DNA of 35,617 nt from Sphaerochaetaceae bacterium (GTDB lineage Bacteria > Spirochaetota > Spirochaetia > Sphaerochaetales > Sphaerochaetaceae): NCBI GenBank assembly GCA_028691695.1, contig JAQUYU010000004.1, forward strand, positions 13,343 through 48,959. The letters are read 5' to 3'. Of this stretch, positions 6,610 through 17,744 are shown piece by piece (positions within the stretch are counted from its first letter, which is position 1; each line of letters begins with the position of its first letter). The notes beneath the pieces were generated by a model. That model made no database searches. It was given only the letters and a program-made list of their open reading frames with translations, and was not told the DNA's origin. A program made the position numbers and the translations under genes.

Positions 6610-9417
6610 TCAATGCATCTGCCCCCAATCGGTACCAGTCTCAATGCTGCAGCGAAGCGGCACGGAAAGCTTTGCAGCAGAAGTCATCACCCTGCTCACC
6701 ATCGCCTTCATCGATTCAACTTCAGCTTCAGGAACTTCGAATATAAGCTCATCATGAACCTGAAGAAGAAGCTTGGAAGAGAATTTCCCATCAATCAGCG
6801 TCTGGGAGACCCCTATCATCGCCTTCTTCATGATCTCGGCGGCAGTGCCCTGAATCACGGAGTTTACGGCAATGCGCTCTGCTCCTGCAAGCTCGACCTT
6901 GTTGGAGGAAGCCATCTGAGGAATAAGCCTCTGATGCCCGAACATCGTATGGATCATCAAGTCCTTCTTCGCCTGCTGCTGAGTCTGTTCAACGAACTTC
7001 TTCACTCCCTTGTACATCAAGAAATAGGAATCGATGAACCCCTGGGCCTCCTTTCGTGAAATGCCCAATTCATTGGAAAGCCTGAAGGCAGACATGCCAT
7101 AGATCACCCCGAAATTAATCGTCTTTGCAATCCGTCGCTGATCCGGAGTGACAAGCTCCGGCAGCTGTCCGAAAATCATCGATGCAGTGCGCCTATGGAC
7201 ATCCTCTCCGCTTCTGAAAGCATCAAGAAGCGCCGGATCATTGCTGTAATGTGCCAGAACGACAAGCTCGATCTGACTGTAGTCAGCCGAAAGAAGCACG
7301 CATCCAGGAGCTGAAGGGAATGCACCCCGGATCATCCTTCCTTCTTCTGTCCTTACCGGAATGTTCTGAAGGTTCGGATTCTTGCATGAAAGCCTTCCAG
7401 TCCCTGTTCCGGTCTGAAGGAAGCTCGGATGGATTCGTCCAGTAGATGGATTGACCAGCGCAGGAAGCCCTTCGCAGTAGCCCCGGAGCTTTGTGAGGAA
7501 ACGGCTTCGCAGGATAAGAGAAGGAACAGGATCATCTGTCTTATTGGCCAGATCCTCCAGCACATCAGAATCAGTGGAGAAGCCCGAACGGGTCTTCTTT
7601 CCGGTTGGAAGATTCCGATCGACGAACAGCACTTCCTGAAGCTGCTTCGGAGAATTGAGGTTGAACTCCTTTCCGCAGGCTTTGTAGACCTGCGCTTTTA
7701 TTCCGATCCTTTCGTCTTCAAGCGTCTTGGAAAGAGCTGCAATCTTGTCCGTATCAAGCAGGATGCCGTTGTATTCCATATCGGCAATCGTCTTCACAAG
7801 AGGCATCTCGATTTCAGTGAACACATTCATCAATCCCGCTTTCTCAAGCCTATGCCCGAAAAGCTGGTACAAGGCCCATGTGACATCGCTGTCCTCGGCA
7901 CCGTATCTGACAGAATCTGAAAGGCTGATGTCAGAGAATAGCTTTCCCTTTGGAACGACATCCTCGAATTTCACAGTGTCATAGGCAAGATTTCTCTTCG
8001 CAAGGTCGTCCATGTTGTACACCCCGCTGTCTGAAGACAGAAGCCATGCTGCAATCATCGTATCGAAATGAAGGCACCCAAGCACTAGCCCGGCACGCCG
8101 GAGCACATTGTAGTCATACTTTATGTTCTGACCTACGACCTTCACGCCCTCAAGCCTTCTGGAAAGAATCTCAAGGACCTTCTTCTCATCAAGCATCCGT
8201 CTTCCTTCGCATACGAGAGGAACATAATAAGACTTTCCGATCTGCGAGCAGAATGAGAATCCGACAAGACTTGCCTGCATCTCATCCACGCTGGTAGTTT
8301 CAGTATCCAAAGCCATGATGCCCAATGAGGCCGCTTCTTTCAATGTCCTGTCAAGCTCTTCTAGAGTTGTTATAGCCTTGTAATCGGGATTTAGAGACAT
8401 TGTTACTCGAAATCCATCATCTTGCATAGCAGCAGGCTCTGGATTGGCTTCTGGAGGGGGAGCCTCATGAGAGACACTCTTCCCGCTTATCCTGGCAGCA
8501 AGAGCTGCAAGGGTCTTGGATCCCGCCTGATAGAAGAGAGGAACAGCCTTGGACCAGTCCAGATCTTTTGCAGAGAATCCTTCCTTGTCAAAGTCATCAA
8601 CCTTGAACAGGTCATCCTTCAGGACTATCAACGTATGAGAAAGCCCAATGTGGTCCTTCGCCGCTTCGAGCTTGGCCTGCACAGAGGGAGAAAGCTCATC
8701 GATATGGCTGTACACGCTGCCAAGGGTGCCATACTGTCCAAGGAGTTTCTCTGCACCCTTGGGACCGAGCCCGTCTATTCCAGGAACGTTGTCCGAACTG
8801 TCACCTAGAATGGTAAGATAATCCACTATCTGATCCGGCTTCACTCCATAGATCTGAGGCACTTCATCCTTGGTGCAGAGCATGTAATCCTTCTCGCCTT
8901 TGCGGGGAGGCCTGAGGACGGTAACGCCATCCCCTACCAGCTGCATGAGATCCTTGTCGCCGGTGACGATGACTGTCTCAAGCCCGCTTCTTCCAGCCTG
9001 GCGGCAGAGAGTGGCAATGATGTCATCGGCTTCCATTCCGACCTGCATCCTGTATGGGATGCCAGCAGCCTTGAGGATATCAAGAATCATCGGAACCTGA
9101 GCATGAAGGTCCTCAGGTGCTGCATCGCGGTTTGCCTTGTACTCTGGGTACAGCTCATGGCGGAACGTCTTTCCATGGGCATCCATGGCAACCACAAGAT
9201 ATTCGGGGTTGTATTTCCCGATGATCATCATCAGAGTATTGAAGAATCCGAACACAGCCGACACGTTACGTCCCTGAGCATCAGTCAGCGGCCTGTTAAT
9301 GAAGGCGAAATACGAACGGTAAATAATCCCGTACCCATCTACTGCAAAGAGCCTTCCTTTTGCAGAAGGCTTGGCCGGCTCGTCATCAAAAAGACTGCCC
9401 TGTTCGTATCCGCTCAT
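6610..9417 (-). CDS. polA: DNA polymerase I
   Basis: 935 residues, the normal full length. The 5' nuclease domain spans about 20-310 (AVDGYG, MEADD at 128-132, GDSSDNVPGI near 205-214). The 3'-5' exonuclease domain spans about 345-530 and keeps Exo I DTE (371-373), Exo II NxxxD (431-435) and Exo III YxxxD (505-509), so proofreading should be active. The polymerase domain has motif A DYSQIEL (712-718), motif B with R761, K765, F769 and Y773, and motif C HDE (888-890). One oddity: the residue after DYSQIEL, usually Arg, is Val719. The ATG at 9417 is preceded by SD GGAGGA. The role is gap filling and RNA primer removal in replication and repair. It lies 10 bp after a small membrane protein gene and 2 bp before coaE. 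Confidence 0.97.
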   Translation of the reverse strand: MSGYEQGSLFDDEPAKPSAKGRLFAVDGYGIIYRSYFAFINRPLTDAQGRNVSAVFGFFNTLMMIIGKYNPEYLVVAMDAHGKTFRHELYPEYKANRDAAPEDLHAQVPMILDILKAAGIPYRMQVGMEADDIIATLCRQAGRSGLETVIVTGDKDLMQLVGDGVTVLRPPRKGEKDYMLCTKDEVPQIYGVKPDQIVDYLTILGDSSDNVPGIDGLGPKGAEKLLGQYGTLGSVYSHIDELSPSVQAKLEAAKDHIGLSHTLIVLKDDLFKVDDFDKEGFSAKDLDWSKAVPLFYQAGSKTLAALAARISGKSVSHEAPPPEANPEPAAMQDDGFRVTMSLNPDYKAITTLEELDRTLKEAASLGIMALDTETTSVDEMQASLVGFSFCSQIGKSYYVPLVCEGRRMLDEKKVLEILSRRLEGVKVVGQNIKYDYNVLRRAGLVLGCLHFDTMIAAWLLSSDSGVYNMDDLAKRNLAYDTVKFEDVVPKGKLFSDISLSDSVRYGAEDSDVTWALYQLFGHRLEKAGLMNVFTEIEMPLVKTIADMEYNGILLDTDKIAALSKTLEDERIGIKAQVYKACGKEFNLNSPKQLQEVLFVDRNLPTGKKTRSGFSTDSDVLEDLANKTDDPVPSLILRSRFLTKLRGYCEGLPALVNPSTGRIHPSFLQTGTGTGRLSCKNPNLQNIPVRTEEGRMIRGAFPSAPGCVLLSADYSQIELVVLAHYSNDPALLDAFRSGEDVHRRTASMIFGQLPELVTPDQRRIAKTINFGVIYGMSAFRLSNELGISRKEAQGFIDSYFLMYKGVKKFVEQTQQQAKKDLMIHTMFGHQRLIPQMASSNKVELAGAERIAVNSVIQGTAAEIMKKAMIGVSQTLIDGKFSSKLLLQVHDELIFEVPEAEVESMKAMVSRVMTSAAKLSVPLRCSIETGTDWGQMH

Positions 9418-11205: not shown

Positions 11206-11832
11206 TCATACAAGAGTCATCTGAAGAACAAGCGAGAAAGAACCTTCCTTGAGATTGTCGCTGTTTGGAATGAGCATGTTCATGTCATGCGTCTCAAGAG
11301 TGAAATCAGTCGGAAGCGTGAATGAAACGCCTAGCTTGATTACAGGGCCAAGGAAGAAATCCAAGGTCGTCCTTATATTGAAGTGGCTCTTGTTAAGAGC
11401 ATCGGTGAACGAAGCCGCCTCAATCGAATTTCCGTCAATCACAAGCGTGCCCTTCTTTCCATCATGCACATAGTCAACAACCGGGCCAAGGCAGATTCCA
11501 AGCCTTGCAGTTCCGAACAGGTCCTCAGAGATTCCAGCAACCAGCAGGCCGGAGAACTGAAGTCCATTGGATTCAGTGACGCCAAGCTCACCGGAGGCAT
11601 CAAGTTCCAGAAATAGCATCTTCGTCCTTAGCTCGACGCCGAAATTGATGTCCTTTGCCGTTATGTTCTTTATATCTGATAGTGAACTGAGGGCTCCGTC
11701 TCTGAAGGTGAAATTGAATCCGGCTGATAGGTCGAACCAGTTCCAGCTCTGATTTGAATTCCCATCATCCGCAGCATATGCACAGGAGCAGAGAATGCAA
11801 GCAATGATCAGAACAACAGCAAACTTCTTCAT
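11206..11832 (-). CDS. putative outer-membrane beta-barrel protein
   Basis: 208 residues. It has an N-terminal signal peptide (MKKFAVVLIIACILCSCAYA). Cleavage after AYA is plausible, but LCSC also resembles a relaxed spirochaetal lipobox, so a lipoprotein cannot be excluded. The mature part alternates polar and hydrophobic residues in short strands broken by Gly/Asn/Asp turns, as in a small barrel. It is paralogous to the gene at 11980-12681: both share the blocks R-T-x-DF-LG-x-I-x-LGV and LPT near the C-terminus and LR..LDAS/EIDAG near the middle. It has its own promoter and leader hairpin. The SD (AAGGCGG) is weak and distant. The role could be porin-like or structural; unknown. Confidence 0.72.
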   Translation of the reverse strand: MKKFAVVLIIACILCSCAYAADDGNSNQSWNWFDLSAGFNFTFRDGALSSLSDIKNITAKDINFGVELRTKMLFLELDASGELGVTESNGLQFSGLLVAGISEDLFGTARLGICLGPVVDYVHDGKKGTLVIDGNSIEAASFTDALNKSHFNIRTTLDFFLGPVIKLGVSFTLPTDFTLETHDMNMLIPNSDNLKEGSFSLVLQMTLV

Positions 11833-11877: not shown

Positions 11878-11907
11878 AATATAACATTTCACTCTGAAAA
11901 AGGATAC
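11878..11907 (-). promoter_or_regulatory. promoter with extended -10, shared with the paralogous gene
   Basis: On the minus strand the -10 is TATATT with an upstream TG (TGTTATATT). The -35 region starts GTATCC and is followed by a T-run. The whole 30-bp block matches the one before the paralogous gene (12749-12778) at 21 of 30 positions with no gap. The expected transcript start is near 11871, giving a leader of about 40 nt. Confidence 0.6.
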
Positions 11908-11918
11908 AGTTTTTATAT

Positions 11919-11954
11919 AAAAAAAAGACACCCCATCACAAGACAGGGCATCTT
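11919..11954 (-). terminator. rho-independent terminator after the gene at 11980
   Basis: On the minus strand an 11-bp stem (AAGATGCCCTG paired with TGGGGTGTCTT, including G-U pairs) with an 8-nt loop is followed by eight T residues. It lies 26 bp after the stop at 11980 and just before the promoter of the next gene, so the 11980-12681 gene is probably transcribed alone. Confidence 0.8.
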
Positions 11955-11979
11955 TGATCTTTCTGAAGGATTTGAAGTC

Positions 11980-12681
11980 CTAGATAAGATTGAATCCCAG
12001 GTAGATTCCAACCTGAGTCGCCTTCCAGTTGGTAGTAGCATCCTTGTAAGCGGCCTTCCATGCTTCACCATCGCTGATTGCAGCAATGCTGAGGTTGGTC
12101 GGAAGAACAGCATTCACGCCGAGCGTGATCGCATCGCCAAGAAGGAAGTCAACAGTGGCTCTTACGTTGATAGGAGCAGTAAGGGCCCAGTTTGCCATGT
12201 TACCGGCTCCGCCTTCCATGCTGGCAATCAGAGTCTGTCTCTTGGTATCTCCAACGGTCGAAGGTCCAATTATGAACTGCTGACCTTCTGGATTGGTAGG
12301 CTTGTATGCGAAGTCAAGTCCGGCTGTAACACCAAGACGGATGAAACCAAGAAGGTCAAATGAAAGACCTACGTTCCCGTAGCCTGAGTAATCGAACGTC
12401 TTGTAGAACTCTTTTGCACCAGATCCATTGGTGTTCATAAGAGCTCCGGCATCAATCTCGACGATTGCAAGACGAATCCTGAGTTCAGGTCCGAACTGGT
12501 AGTTGTCCAGCTTAAGGAAAGGAGAAGGATCTGTTCCAGCCTTGACTTCATCAATCATTTCCCCAAGTCCATAATTGTACTTTGCTACTGCGCCGATGAT
12601 GAGATCGAACGCGCCTCTTCCTGCAAACACTGCTGCTGGAATGAGCAGAGCAACCATTAAGACAATCAATGTTTTCTTCAT
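11980..12681 (-). CDS. putative outer-membrane beta-barrel protein
   Basis: 233 residues with a clear signal peptide (MKKTLIVLMVALLIPAAVFA, cleavage before GRG). The mature protein is rich in Gly, Asn and alternating hydrophobics, with repeated short strands and a final strand ending GIYLGFNLI, as expected for a barrel inserted by BamA. It is a paralogue of the gene at 11206-11832. SD AGGAGA lies 8-10 bp before the ATG at 12681. It has its own extended -10 promoter, leader hairpin and strong terminator, which suggests independent and perhaps abundant expression. No enzymatic motif is seen; porin or structural envelope protein is the likely class. Confidence 0.75.
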   Translation of the reverse strand: MKKTLIVLMVALLIPAAVFAGRGAFDLIIGAVAKYNYGLGEMIDEVKAGTDPSPFLKLDNYQFGPELRIRLAIVEIDAGALMNTNGSGAKEFYKTFDYSGYGNVGLSFDLLGFIRLGVTAGLDFAYKPTNPEGQQFIIGPSTVGDTKRQTLIASMEGGAGNMANWALTAPINVRATVDFLLGDAITLGVNAVLPTNLSIAAISDGEAWKAAYKDATTNWKATQVGIYLGFNLI

Positions 12682-12697
12682 TTTCTATTTCTCCTTG

Positions 12698-12714
12698 TGA
12701 CGGCGAACCCGTCA
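12698..12714 (-). promoter_or_regulatory. leader hairpin abutting the SD of the gene at 12681
   Basis: The 6-bp inverted repeat TGACGG/CCGTCA with a 5-nt loop ends directly against the AAGGAGA ribosome binding site (12692-12697). It would leave the SD single-stranded but at the base of a stable stem, an arrangement often linked with mRNA stability. Confidence 0.55.
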
Positions 12715-12748
12715 TCAATTTGCAACACGAAGCATACGCCTCGCAATT

Positions 12749-12778
12749 AGTATAACAAGAGTCTTTTAAAAAAGATAC
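12749..12778 (-). promoter_or_regulatory. promoter of the outer-membrane protein gene at 12681
   Basis: Minus-strand -10 TATACT preceded by TGT (an extended -10), with GTATCT and a T-run at the -35 position. It shares 21 of 30 positions with the promoter of the paralogue (11878-11907). The expected start is near 12742, giving a leader of about 61 nt that contains the hairpin at 12698-12714. Confidence 0.6.
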
Positions 12779-14733: not shown

Positions 14734-15840
14734 ATGAGAATCAGAATCACAGACCTGGTTCAGAAAGGACAGGGAATAGGACGCTGCGAGGACGGAAGAG
14801 TGATCTTCGTCTCGGGCGCCCTTCCCGGAGAGCTTGTAGATGTCCAGGTGACCAGGGAGAAGAAGGACTTCCTGATGGGAAATGCCGTTTCGGTGATCGA
14901 AAGCTCGCCGGACCGGACAGTCCCCGTCTGCCCGCTGTACGGAATCTGCGGAGGCTGCAACCTGATGCACCTCAGATACGAGGCGCAGCTTTCAGCGAAG
15001 AAGAAGTTATTCCTGGACACGCTGCACCAATTCCATGCGCTTGACAAGTCCCCGTCCTTCCAGATGGAGGCGCCGGCATCAGGCAAGAGCCTAGGCTACA
15101 GAACCAGAGTCCGATTCGAGATCAAGGACTCAAGCGCCGGTTTCTTCCGATCAGGAAGCAATGAATTCGTCGCTGTTCAGTCCTGCCCTGTGCTTGATCC
15201 CGAGATTAATGCCTTGCTCGTTCATCCTGAGAAGCTGGCTGCAGTGGCCAATGGAGGAGAAGCAGCAGTATGCATGAGTTCAAACGGTCCTCTTTTAGGA
15301 CGTGAAAACGGATTTGCGACCATCATGGGCAAGACGCTGCCTGTTTCAAACAGCGTGTTCTTTCAGTCAAACCTCTCTCTGCTGCCTGAGATGATTGATT
15401 ACATAGTCTCTCTCGTTCAAGGAGAGAACGTCATGGATCTGTTCTCTGGAATCGGAACGTTCTCTGCTTTCCTTGAGGACCATCACAAGGTCATCGCCGT
15501 TGAAAGGGATCCCCATTGCCTGGCTCTTGCCAGAATGCATCTGAAATCAACTGAGTTCTTCACAAGAAGCGTGGAGGATTTCAAGTTCACCAAGTGGGCT
15601 CAGACCATCATCGTCGACCCGCCTAGGACAGGACTTGACAAAAAAGTGCCTGCCCAGCTAGGAAAGCTCGGCGCAAGTCGTATAATATATGCAAGCTGCG
15701 ACAGCGTAACGTTCGCACGCGATGCCGCTTTGTTCAGCGAGCTGGGCTATGCCCTGACAAGCTCAAGGATATTTGATTTTTACCCGCAGACATCCCACAT
15801 GGAGTCTGTGAACGTTCTTGACAGGAGGACTGGGAAATGA
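14734..15840 (+). CDS. RNA m5U methyltransferase with TRAM domain (RlmD/RumA family)
   Basis: 368 residues from the ATG at 14734; a GTG at 14728 overlapping the pepF stop is the alternative, and neither has a strong SD. Residues about 3-60 form a TRAM RNA-binding domain. C66-x5-C72-x2-C75 plus C151 form the Fe-S cluster of this family. The SAM-binding region is LFSGIGTFS near 236-244. DPPRTG (296-301) and the nucleophile Cys322 in ASCDS complete the catalytic site. It makes 5-methyluridine in RNA using SAM. The TRAM domain and Fe-S site favour 23S rRNA (RlmD or RlmCD) over tRNA (TrmA). At 368 residues it is shorter than E. coli RlmD (433). Confidence 0.88.
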   Translation: MRIRITDLVQKGQGIGRCEDGRVIFVSGALPGELVDVQVTREKKDFLMGNAVSVIESSPDRTVPVCPLYGICGGCNLMHLRYEAQLSAKKKLFLDTLHQFHALDKSPSFQMEAPASGKSLGYRTRVRFEIKDSSAGFFRSGSNEFVAVQSCPVLDPEINALLVHPEKLAAVANGGEAAVCMSSNGPLLGRENGFATIMGKTLPVSNSVFFQSNLSLLPEMIDYIVSLVQGENVMDLFSGIGTFSAFLEDHHKVIAVERDPHCLALARMHLKSTEFFTRSVEDFKFTKWAQTIIVDPPRTGLDKKVPAQLGKLGASRIIYASCDSVTFARDAALFSELGYALTSSRIFDFYPQTSHMESVNVLDRRTGK

Positions 15841-17744
15841 AAGACGGATTCATCAAGGTGGCTGCAGCCACTCCTTCGATAAGGGTGGCAGACTGCGTTT
15901 ACAACACATCCAAGATCCTTGAGCTCATCAAGAAAGCCCAGAGCGAAGACGTGAAGCTGCTTGTGCTTCCTGAGCTCTGCGTCACAGGCTACACCTGCGG
16001 CGACCTGTTCTTCCAGCAGGCGCTGATTGAAAGCTCAAGAGAAGCTGTAGGCAAGATTGTCGAAAGCGTTCCGAAGGATCTCATCGTGATATTCGGCTGC
16101 CCTGTGGAATTCCGCGGCAAGCTGTTCAACTGCGCCTGCGTTGCAAACGATGGCAGGATCCTCGGGCTGGTGCCCAAGGTCAACATCCCGAACTATCAGG
16201 AATTCTACGAATGCCGCTGGTTCACCCCTGCCCTGAGCCAGCCTCAGAAGATCAGCTTCGCGGGATACGATACCGTACTGTTCAACAAGCTCATCTTCGC
16301 ATGCAATCAGATTCCGCTGTTCAGGCTCTCGGTCGAAATATGCGAAGATATCTGGGTTCCGAATCCGCCTAGCGTATCTCATGTGGTAAATGGAGCCACT
16401 GTCATAGCAAACCTTTCCGCAAGCGATGAGTTTGCAGGCAAGTCCGCATACCGCTCAAGTCTCATTTGCGGGCAGAGCGCAAGGCTCATCTGCTCTTACA
16501 TCTATGCAGATGCCGGTGAAGGAGAATCAACATCCGATCTGGTGTTCGTAGGTCACAACATGATCTGCGAGGATGGCGAGTTTCTCGCCCAGCACAGGGA
16601 ATCCGAGGATAGCCTCCTGATCTCTGAGATCGATGTCAAGAAAATTGACCATGAGCGCAAGCTAAGGAACACTTTCGGCTGTGCAGACGACCCGACGTAC
16701 ATCTATGTCCCGTTCGACATGGATCTGGAGCAGACCGTTCTTACCAGGAAATTCGAGAAGTTCCCATTCGTTCCGGAGAAGGACTCCCAGCTCTATTCGC
16801 GCTGCAACAACATCATCAGGCTTCAAGCCCTGGCACTAAAGAGACGGTTCATCCATACCGGCTCCAAGACAGCCGTGATCGGGCTTTCAGGCGGTCTGGA
16901 CTCGACCCTTGCGCTTCTGGTGACAGTCAAGTCATTCGAAATGCTTTCAAAGAACCGCAAGGACATCATTGCTGTTACCATGCCATGCTTCGGGACAACG
17001 TCGCGGACCCGTTCCAATGCTGAGAAGCTTGCCCAGGCCTATGGCTGCACACTCAGGGTGATCGACATCAAGGATGCAGTGGACCAGCACTTCTCTGACA
17101 TCGGACATGACCCAGAGGTACACAACGTAGTATATGAGAACTCGCAGGCTCGCGAAAGGACTCAGATCCTTATGGATATTGCAAACGAACTCAACGGTCT
17201 GGTCATAGGAACGGGAGATCTTTCAGAGCTTGCTCTAGGATGGGCAACCTTCAACGGCGATCACATGTCCAACTATGCAGTCAACGCCGGAGTTCCAAAG
17301 ACCCTTGTAAGGGCGCTTGTGACGGTGATTGCCGACAATAGCTCTGGAGAACTCGCTGAGGTGCTGCATGACATTGTGGACACCCCTGTGAGTCCTGAGC
17401 TTCTTCCATCCGATCCGAACGGCAGGATAACCCAGAACACAGAGAATATCGTGGGGCCGTATGAGCTTCACGACTTCTTCCTCTACCATATGCTCAGATG
17501 GGGTCATGCGCCTTCAAAGATCTTCAGAATGGCCTGCTATGCATTCCAGGACACATATGCTCCAGAAATAATTGAAAAATGGCTTAGAATCTTCTATCGC
17601 AGGTTCTTCACCCAGCAGTTCAAGCGTTCATGCATGCCTGACGGACCTAAGGTAGGATCTGTTGCTCTTTCTCCACGAGGGGACCTGAGAATGCCGTCCG
17701 ATGCCTGCATGGCAATATGGATGGATGATCTGGAAGAAGTCTGA
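15837..17744 (+). CDS. nadE: glutamine-dependent NAD+ synthetase
   Basis: 635 residues. It makes NAD from nicotinate adenine dinucleotide, ATP and glutamine. The N-terminal nitrilase-like glutaminase domain (about 1-290) has the Glu46-Lys114-Cys169 triad in [17 protein letters not shown] and EICEDIW. The C-terminal synthetase domain has the pyrophosphatase P-loop SGGLDS (351-356) and the conserved [15 protein letters not shown] block. Both halves are complete, so ammonia can come from glutamine without a partner. The ATG overlaps the methyltransferase stop by 4 bp (ATGA), with AGGAGG upstream. The stop codon directly abuts the stop codon of the convergent response-regulator gene, with no intergenic base. 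Confidence 0.96.

Follow-up and report, generated by a model that had tools for sequence, protein, structure and literature searches.

Two neighbouring genes in the draft genome of a Sphaerochaetaceae bacterium (GenBank assembly GCA_028691695.1, contig JAQUYU010000004.1) are predicted to encode outer-membrane barrels, and each is preceded by a similar block of 30 nucleotides. This raises the question whether the blocks are promoters and, if so, which sigma factor reads them. The window, meaning the whole stretch of DNA that was analysed, comprises 35,617 nucleotides; the source genome is a draft of 1.88 Mb (86% complete), and the relatives used for comparison are recorded as Sphaerochaetaceae and Spirochaetales. 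The features of the locus are the following:

6610–9417, minus strand: polA, one anchor of the conserved locus nadE-[barrels]-polA
11206–11832, minus strand: barrel gene 1 (P0001, 208 aa), paralogue of barrel gene 2
11878–11907, minus strand: putative promoter block of barrel gene 1, with GTATC as -35 (11903–11907), a pyrimidine/T-run (11897–11902) and TGTTAT as -10 (11881–11886)
11924–11955, minus strand: hairpin resembling an intrinsic terminator, between barrel gene 2 and the promoter of barrel gene 1
11980–12681, minus strand: barrel gene 2 (P0002, 233 aa), with a signal peptide and a predicted 8-stranded outer-membrane beta-barrel of OmpA/OprF-type fold
12749–12778, minus strand: putative promoter block of barrel gene 2, with GTATC as -35 (12774–12778), a T-run (12768–12773) and TGTTAT as -10 (12752–12757)
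15837–17744, plus strand: nadE, the other anchor of the locus

The sequence-only reading had described the two genes as paralogous barrel genes. P0001 and P0002 share 28% amino-acid identity (BLASTP E 2e-15), which confirms the paralogy, and the barrel label is supported by structure prediction. The AlphaFold2 model of P0002 (pLDDT 82.8, pTM 0.75) displays a signal helix followed by eight long antiparallel strands; Foldseek analysis of this model lists OprF, OmpA, NspA, Ail and OmpX as top hits, with the transmembrane barrels of OprF and OmpA coming closest among solved structures. No Pfam or NCBIfam family scores over its cut-off for either protein; hence, the resemblance to OmpA is one of fold and not of family membership. 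P0002 weakly matches the N-terminal half of the NCBIfam entry NF049866 (TDE1717 family outer membrane beta-barrel protein; E 0.0012); with a score of 18.8 bits, where the cut-off is 135, it is not a member by the curated test. A literature search on TDE1717 returned nothing usable. The model supports the prediction that P0001 and P0002 are outer-membrane barrels. A third barrel paralogue is found elsewhere in the source genome (G000:C29:11823-12193), with a GTAAC-type site, GTAACCTTGCTTTTCCCTGATTGTTCTG, upstream. In one relative (L075, G001:C161), a decayed additional barrel copy with an in-frame stop adjoins the orthologue of barrel gene 2, pointing to gene turnover at the locus.

In minus-strand orientation, barrel gene 1 has the block GTATCCTTTTTCAGAGTGAAATGTTATATT (11907 to 11878) and barrel gene 2 the block GTATCTTTTTTAAAAGACTCTTGTTATACT (12778 to 12749). 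Direct reading confirms the ungapped alignment noted before, with 21 of 30 positions identical. The terminator-like hairpin separates the two genes and thereby suggests that they form separate transcription units. A joint pattern of the blocks, allowing up to 3 mismatches, occurs in the window at the two blocks only and in none of 100 shuffles, and in the 1.88 Mb draft at the same two places only (reversed control: 0), counts that are partly circular because the pattern was derived from these very sites. A less circular test compares the best-matching 30-mer pair of the two 160-bp upstream regions with that of dinucleotide shuffles. The pair agrees at 22/30 positions, a value reached in 4 of 1000 shuffles. 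By itself, the pairwise similarity is only moderately improbable (about 0.004) and suggestive only.

As pairwise similarity alone is insufficient, it is conservation across genomes that settles the promoter reading. GTATC-N17/18-GTTAT is located upstream of the first barrel gene at nadE-[barrels]-polA in most Sphaerochaetaceae genera examined, and the same-genus orthologue of barrel gene 1 carries GTATCTTTTTTTCCTGAGAGTTGTTATATT. Sister genera display the plain GTAAC form at the same barrel locus, other genera GTATC. In genus g8, the syntenic barrel locus has near-perfect ECF sites (G026: GTAACCTTTTTTGTGTCAGGATTGTTTAGAG, 24.3 bits; G009: 21.1 bits), and this links both forms, GTATC and GTAAC, to a single regulator. 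The element is not confined to barrel genes: GTATC-N17-GTTATA precedes a large 5'-nucleotidase lipoprotein (metallophosphatase and 5'-nucleotidase domains) in at least 6 genera, and a lipoprotein of the same genus as the source (G002, PF02872) has GTACC-N17-GTTATATT upstream; the promoter of its orthologue in the source genome could not be identified. The earlier proposal that the promoter has been kept while the coding regions diverged holds up, since the element persists where the barrel proteins are only about 30% identical, with conserved boxes and a variable spacer. We regard these comparisons as good support for reading the block as a genuine promoter element that has been conserved. Four loci (L012, L013, L017 and L006) contain, upstream of the second barrel gene, a conserved inverted repeat, GAAACC-N4-GGTTTC (imperfect in L006), with TGTTAT behind it at a spacing like that of ECF sites. 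This element may be a hairpin, a promoter, or both; the GAAACC sites were set aside because their inverted repeat may be a hairpin.

The source genome contains one canonical ECF sigma factor (P0003, 173 aa; G000:C136), whose gene follows cysS and is itself followed by that of a zf-HC2 anti-sigma. P0003 displays PF04542 at residues 15–81 and PF08281 at residues 112–164, both over cut-off, as is TIGR02937, and the neighbouring open reading frame scores over cut-off for zf-HC2. The barrel alignment was too diverged for a scan of the collection, and the ECF alignment was used in its place. Among named Spirochaetia loci, an anti-sigma with an Hx3Cx2C motif and a hydrophobic segment follows the sigma gene in 80 of 80. 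Since the ECF factor is present in 112 of 119 of the family, that is nearly universal, its co-occurrence with the block cannot serve as a test of the link between the two. Known hallmarks of ECF promoters are AAC at -35 and CGT at -10; the anti-sigma is co-transcribed, and autoregulation is usual (PMC8103513). The promoter of the sigma gene itself, GTAACCTTTTTGCGAGGATAGTTGTTAAG, has the same two boxes as the blocks, with a spacer of 18 nt versus 17 nt; the sequence upstream of the gene reads GTAACCTTTTTGCGAGGATAGTTGTTAAGCTT-ATG. GTAAC lies at -31/-32 from the sigma ATG in 77 of the 80 named loci; a further locus has it at -33, and no such site was found in the remaining two, where the start contains masked bases in one case and could not be aligned in the other. 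This conserved ECF-type site suggests that the sigma factor may activate its own gene through a site of the type seen in the blocks. In nearly all Spirochaetia examined (G000:C136, L083; L168-L247), the -10 box of the autopromoter ends a few bases before the sigma ATG; with the site so close, a leaderless sigma mRNA is to be expected, its 5' end coinciding with the ATG or adjoining it.

For an independent test, a weight matrix was built from 37 unique ECF autopromoters only, with no sequence of the window among them, and about 71,000 positions of the window were scored with it. Block 12749–12778 ranks first (15.5 bits) and block 11878–11907 second (10.6 bits), followed by a third position at 8.6. 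Shuffled windows contain on average 0.76 hits at 10.57 bits or more and 0.045 hits at 15.46 bits or more, and shuffled local upstream regions reach the two block scores 53/5000 and 13/5000 times. The score of each block is modest singly and strong jointly. A variant of the -10 hallmark is found at the right spacing, as (T)GTT follows GTATC after 17 nt in both blocks, and ECF autopromoters have (T)GTT 17–18 nt after GTAAC. The -35 of the window blocks is GTATC, thus ATC versus the AAC typical of ECF promoters; GTAAC occurs in the promoter of the sigma gene, upstream of the third barrel gene and at some barrel sites of sister genera.

We consider it likely, with good confidence, that the two blocks are promoters of the single ECF sigma factor and drive two outer-membrane barrel genes. 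In this model, a site would consist of a GTAWC -35 followed by pyrimidine/T-rich bases and, at a distance of 17–18 nt, a -10 of the form TTGTTA or TGTTAT. A membrane-anchored zinc-finger anti-sigma would hold the ECF sigma factor until an envelope signal releases it. The freed sigma factor would then transcribe the barrel genes along with its own operon and, in relatives, the 5'-nucleotidase lipoprotein gene, so that the supply of outer-membrane barrels would be tied to the state of the envelope. The model draws on what can be read from sequence, namely the motif, its spacing, its syntenic conservation, the matching promoter of the sigma gene, the anti-sigma architecture and the predicted barrel fold. 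From these we infer the binding of the sigma factor to the block sites, and also which signal induces the response and in which direction it goes.

The blocks may also be composite promoters read by both ECF and sigma-70 polymerases, with a basal supply through the extended -10 and an extra supply under envelope stress through the ECF factor. Among the sites compared, the weakened ECF -35 GTATC is coupled to TTAT (18/18 versus 4/11, p 2.1e-4) and to TATAnT (13/18 versus 0/11, Fisher p 1.3e-4), the sites of comparison being of the GTAAC type and excluding that of the sigma gene. The site lists were assembled by hand, and the p-values, uncorrected for relatedness, overstate independence because the sites are related by descent. 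The coupling could equally be compensation within ECF recognition, and the composite reading overlaps with the ECF explanation and does not exclude it. We hold it as a tentative possibility, less probable than not. With similar reserve, one may suppose that across Sphaerochaetaceae the weakening of GTAAC to GTATC has been kept together with a full extended -10 at barrel and 5'-nucleotidase promoters, serving both polymerases. If true, one promoter would provide a constant base level and a stress-driven top-up.

That the blocks are plain sigma-70 promoters with an extended -10 TGTTATAnT and no need of a -35, the GTATC and T-run being a binding site for an activator, which the sequence-only reading had allowed as an alternative, appears improbable to us. 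The same coupling of TATAnT to GTATC speaks in its favour, and TGTTATACT and TGTTATATT do match TGnTATAnT. However, the third base of TGn is T in every case, and the distance between GTATC and GTT stays at 17–18 nt, as would be expected of a -35. In a sister genus, the syntenic barrel locus has GTAAC...TTGTTTAG, which does not constitute a sigma-70 -10, and the ECF autopromoter matrix recovers both blocks. A TTGACA-type -35 is absent, and a scan for the sigma-70 consensus called neither block. The extended -10 proposed by the sequence-only reading is borne out insofar as the GTATC form fits TGnTATAnT, but an ECF-type promoter (-35 GTAWC, -10 GTT) is the best reading of the element, and the sigma-70 reading is probably secondary. 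A functionless remnant of gene duplication, or chance between AT-rich regions, would fit the AT-richness of both upstream regions and the shuffling value given above, yet it is very improbable, given that the element persists with conserved boxes and a variable spacer in genera whose proteins are about 30% identical and that an independently trained matrix recovers both blocks.

The idea of a kept promoter for envelope proteins, read by one sigma factor, gains support across genomes; its extension to a broad regulon does not, as the literal motif proposed as its marker matches only the two known sites in the source genome. A model based on sequence only adds the sigma promoter and one weak match at C125 without an obvious target gene, and the well-scoring sites in the source genome are the two blocks and the sigma gene only. 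A family-wide motif search outside sigma and barrel genes returned roughly as many matches as the reversed control. In a family-wide search for GTAAC, signal-peptide genes lie downstream of 16 of 40 fetched non-sigma hits versus 4 of 20 reversed-pattern controls by a crude rule; the four control cases look by eye like internal methionines of membrane-protein open reading frames, a judgement made after seeing them. The contrast is weak by the rule as written, and a broad envelope regulon is not claimed on this basis. Recognised across genomes, the regulon seems to be small: the sigma operon, the barrels and the 5'-nucleotidase lipoprotein.

The RpoE (sigma E) system of Escherichia coli lowers porin supply through small RNAs. 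Compared with it, the motif described here is located directly upstream of barrel genes, suggesting activation, and the anti-sigma is of the zf-HC2 type. RpoE and its partner RseA share with the present circuit an ECF sigma factor with a membrane anti-sigma and, by our model, an envelope function; RpoE is positively autoregulated, as the conserved site before the sigma gene suggests for P0003, and responds to unfolded outer-membrane proteins (PMC8103513). In Pseudomonas aeruginosa, SigX is an ECF factor of envelope homeostasis that drives oprF (PMC4477172; PMC3832394). This likewise pairs an envelope-homeostasis ECF factor with the gene of a major outer-membrane protein, whereas our circuit is deduced from sequence only; the N-terminal barrel of OprF is the top structural hit of P0002. 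Our case differs in belonging to another phylum, and the barrels are small and stand-alone, without room for an OmpA-like C-terminal domain. By analogy, the circuit most likely resembles SigX-oprF and other envelope ECF circuits. ECF factors of the sigma E type are also present in Leptospira, a distant relative, where they are numerous, and the targets of sigma-24 are hard to predict because -35 elements are poorly conserved (PMC12655853); here, in contrast, one conserved ECF factor goes with a sharply defined site. In the open-access literature, our search met no description of an ECF regulon in Sphaerochaeta, which is no proof of absence, and a search on the Treponema RpoE regulon returned nothing usable. 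Little is known about the outer-membrane proteins of free-living and gut spirochaetes or about how they are controlled. Together, a single conserved ECF factor, its sharply defined target site and the syntenic barrel locus would make a testable envelope-homeostasis circuit in cultured spirochaetes, e.g. Sphaerochaeta.

Some further ECF-like sites were observed in relatives. In one genome (G139), identical GTAACCTTTTTCTCTCATTGTTGTTT sites occur at three places (L266, L268, L271) with near-identical sequence after them, which looks like a repeated element carrying an ECF-like promoter. In several genomes of g9 and g19, TTCTTGACAGTT directly follows an ECF-like site (L274, L277, L279, L282, L284), possibly representing tandem ECF and sigma-70 promoters. 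In g19, an ECF-like site also lies upstream of an apparent larger protein of the sigma-70 family (L278, L283), which may suggest a possible sigma cascade.
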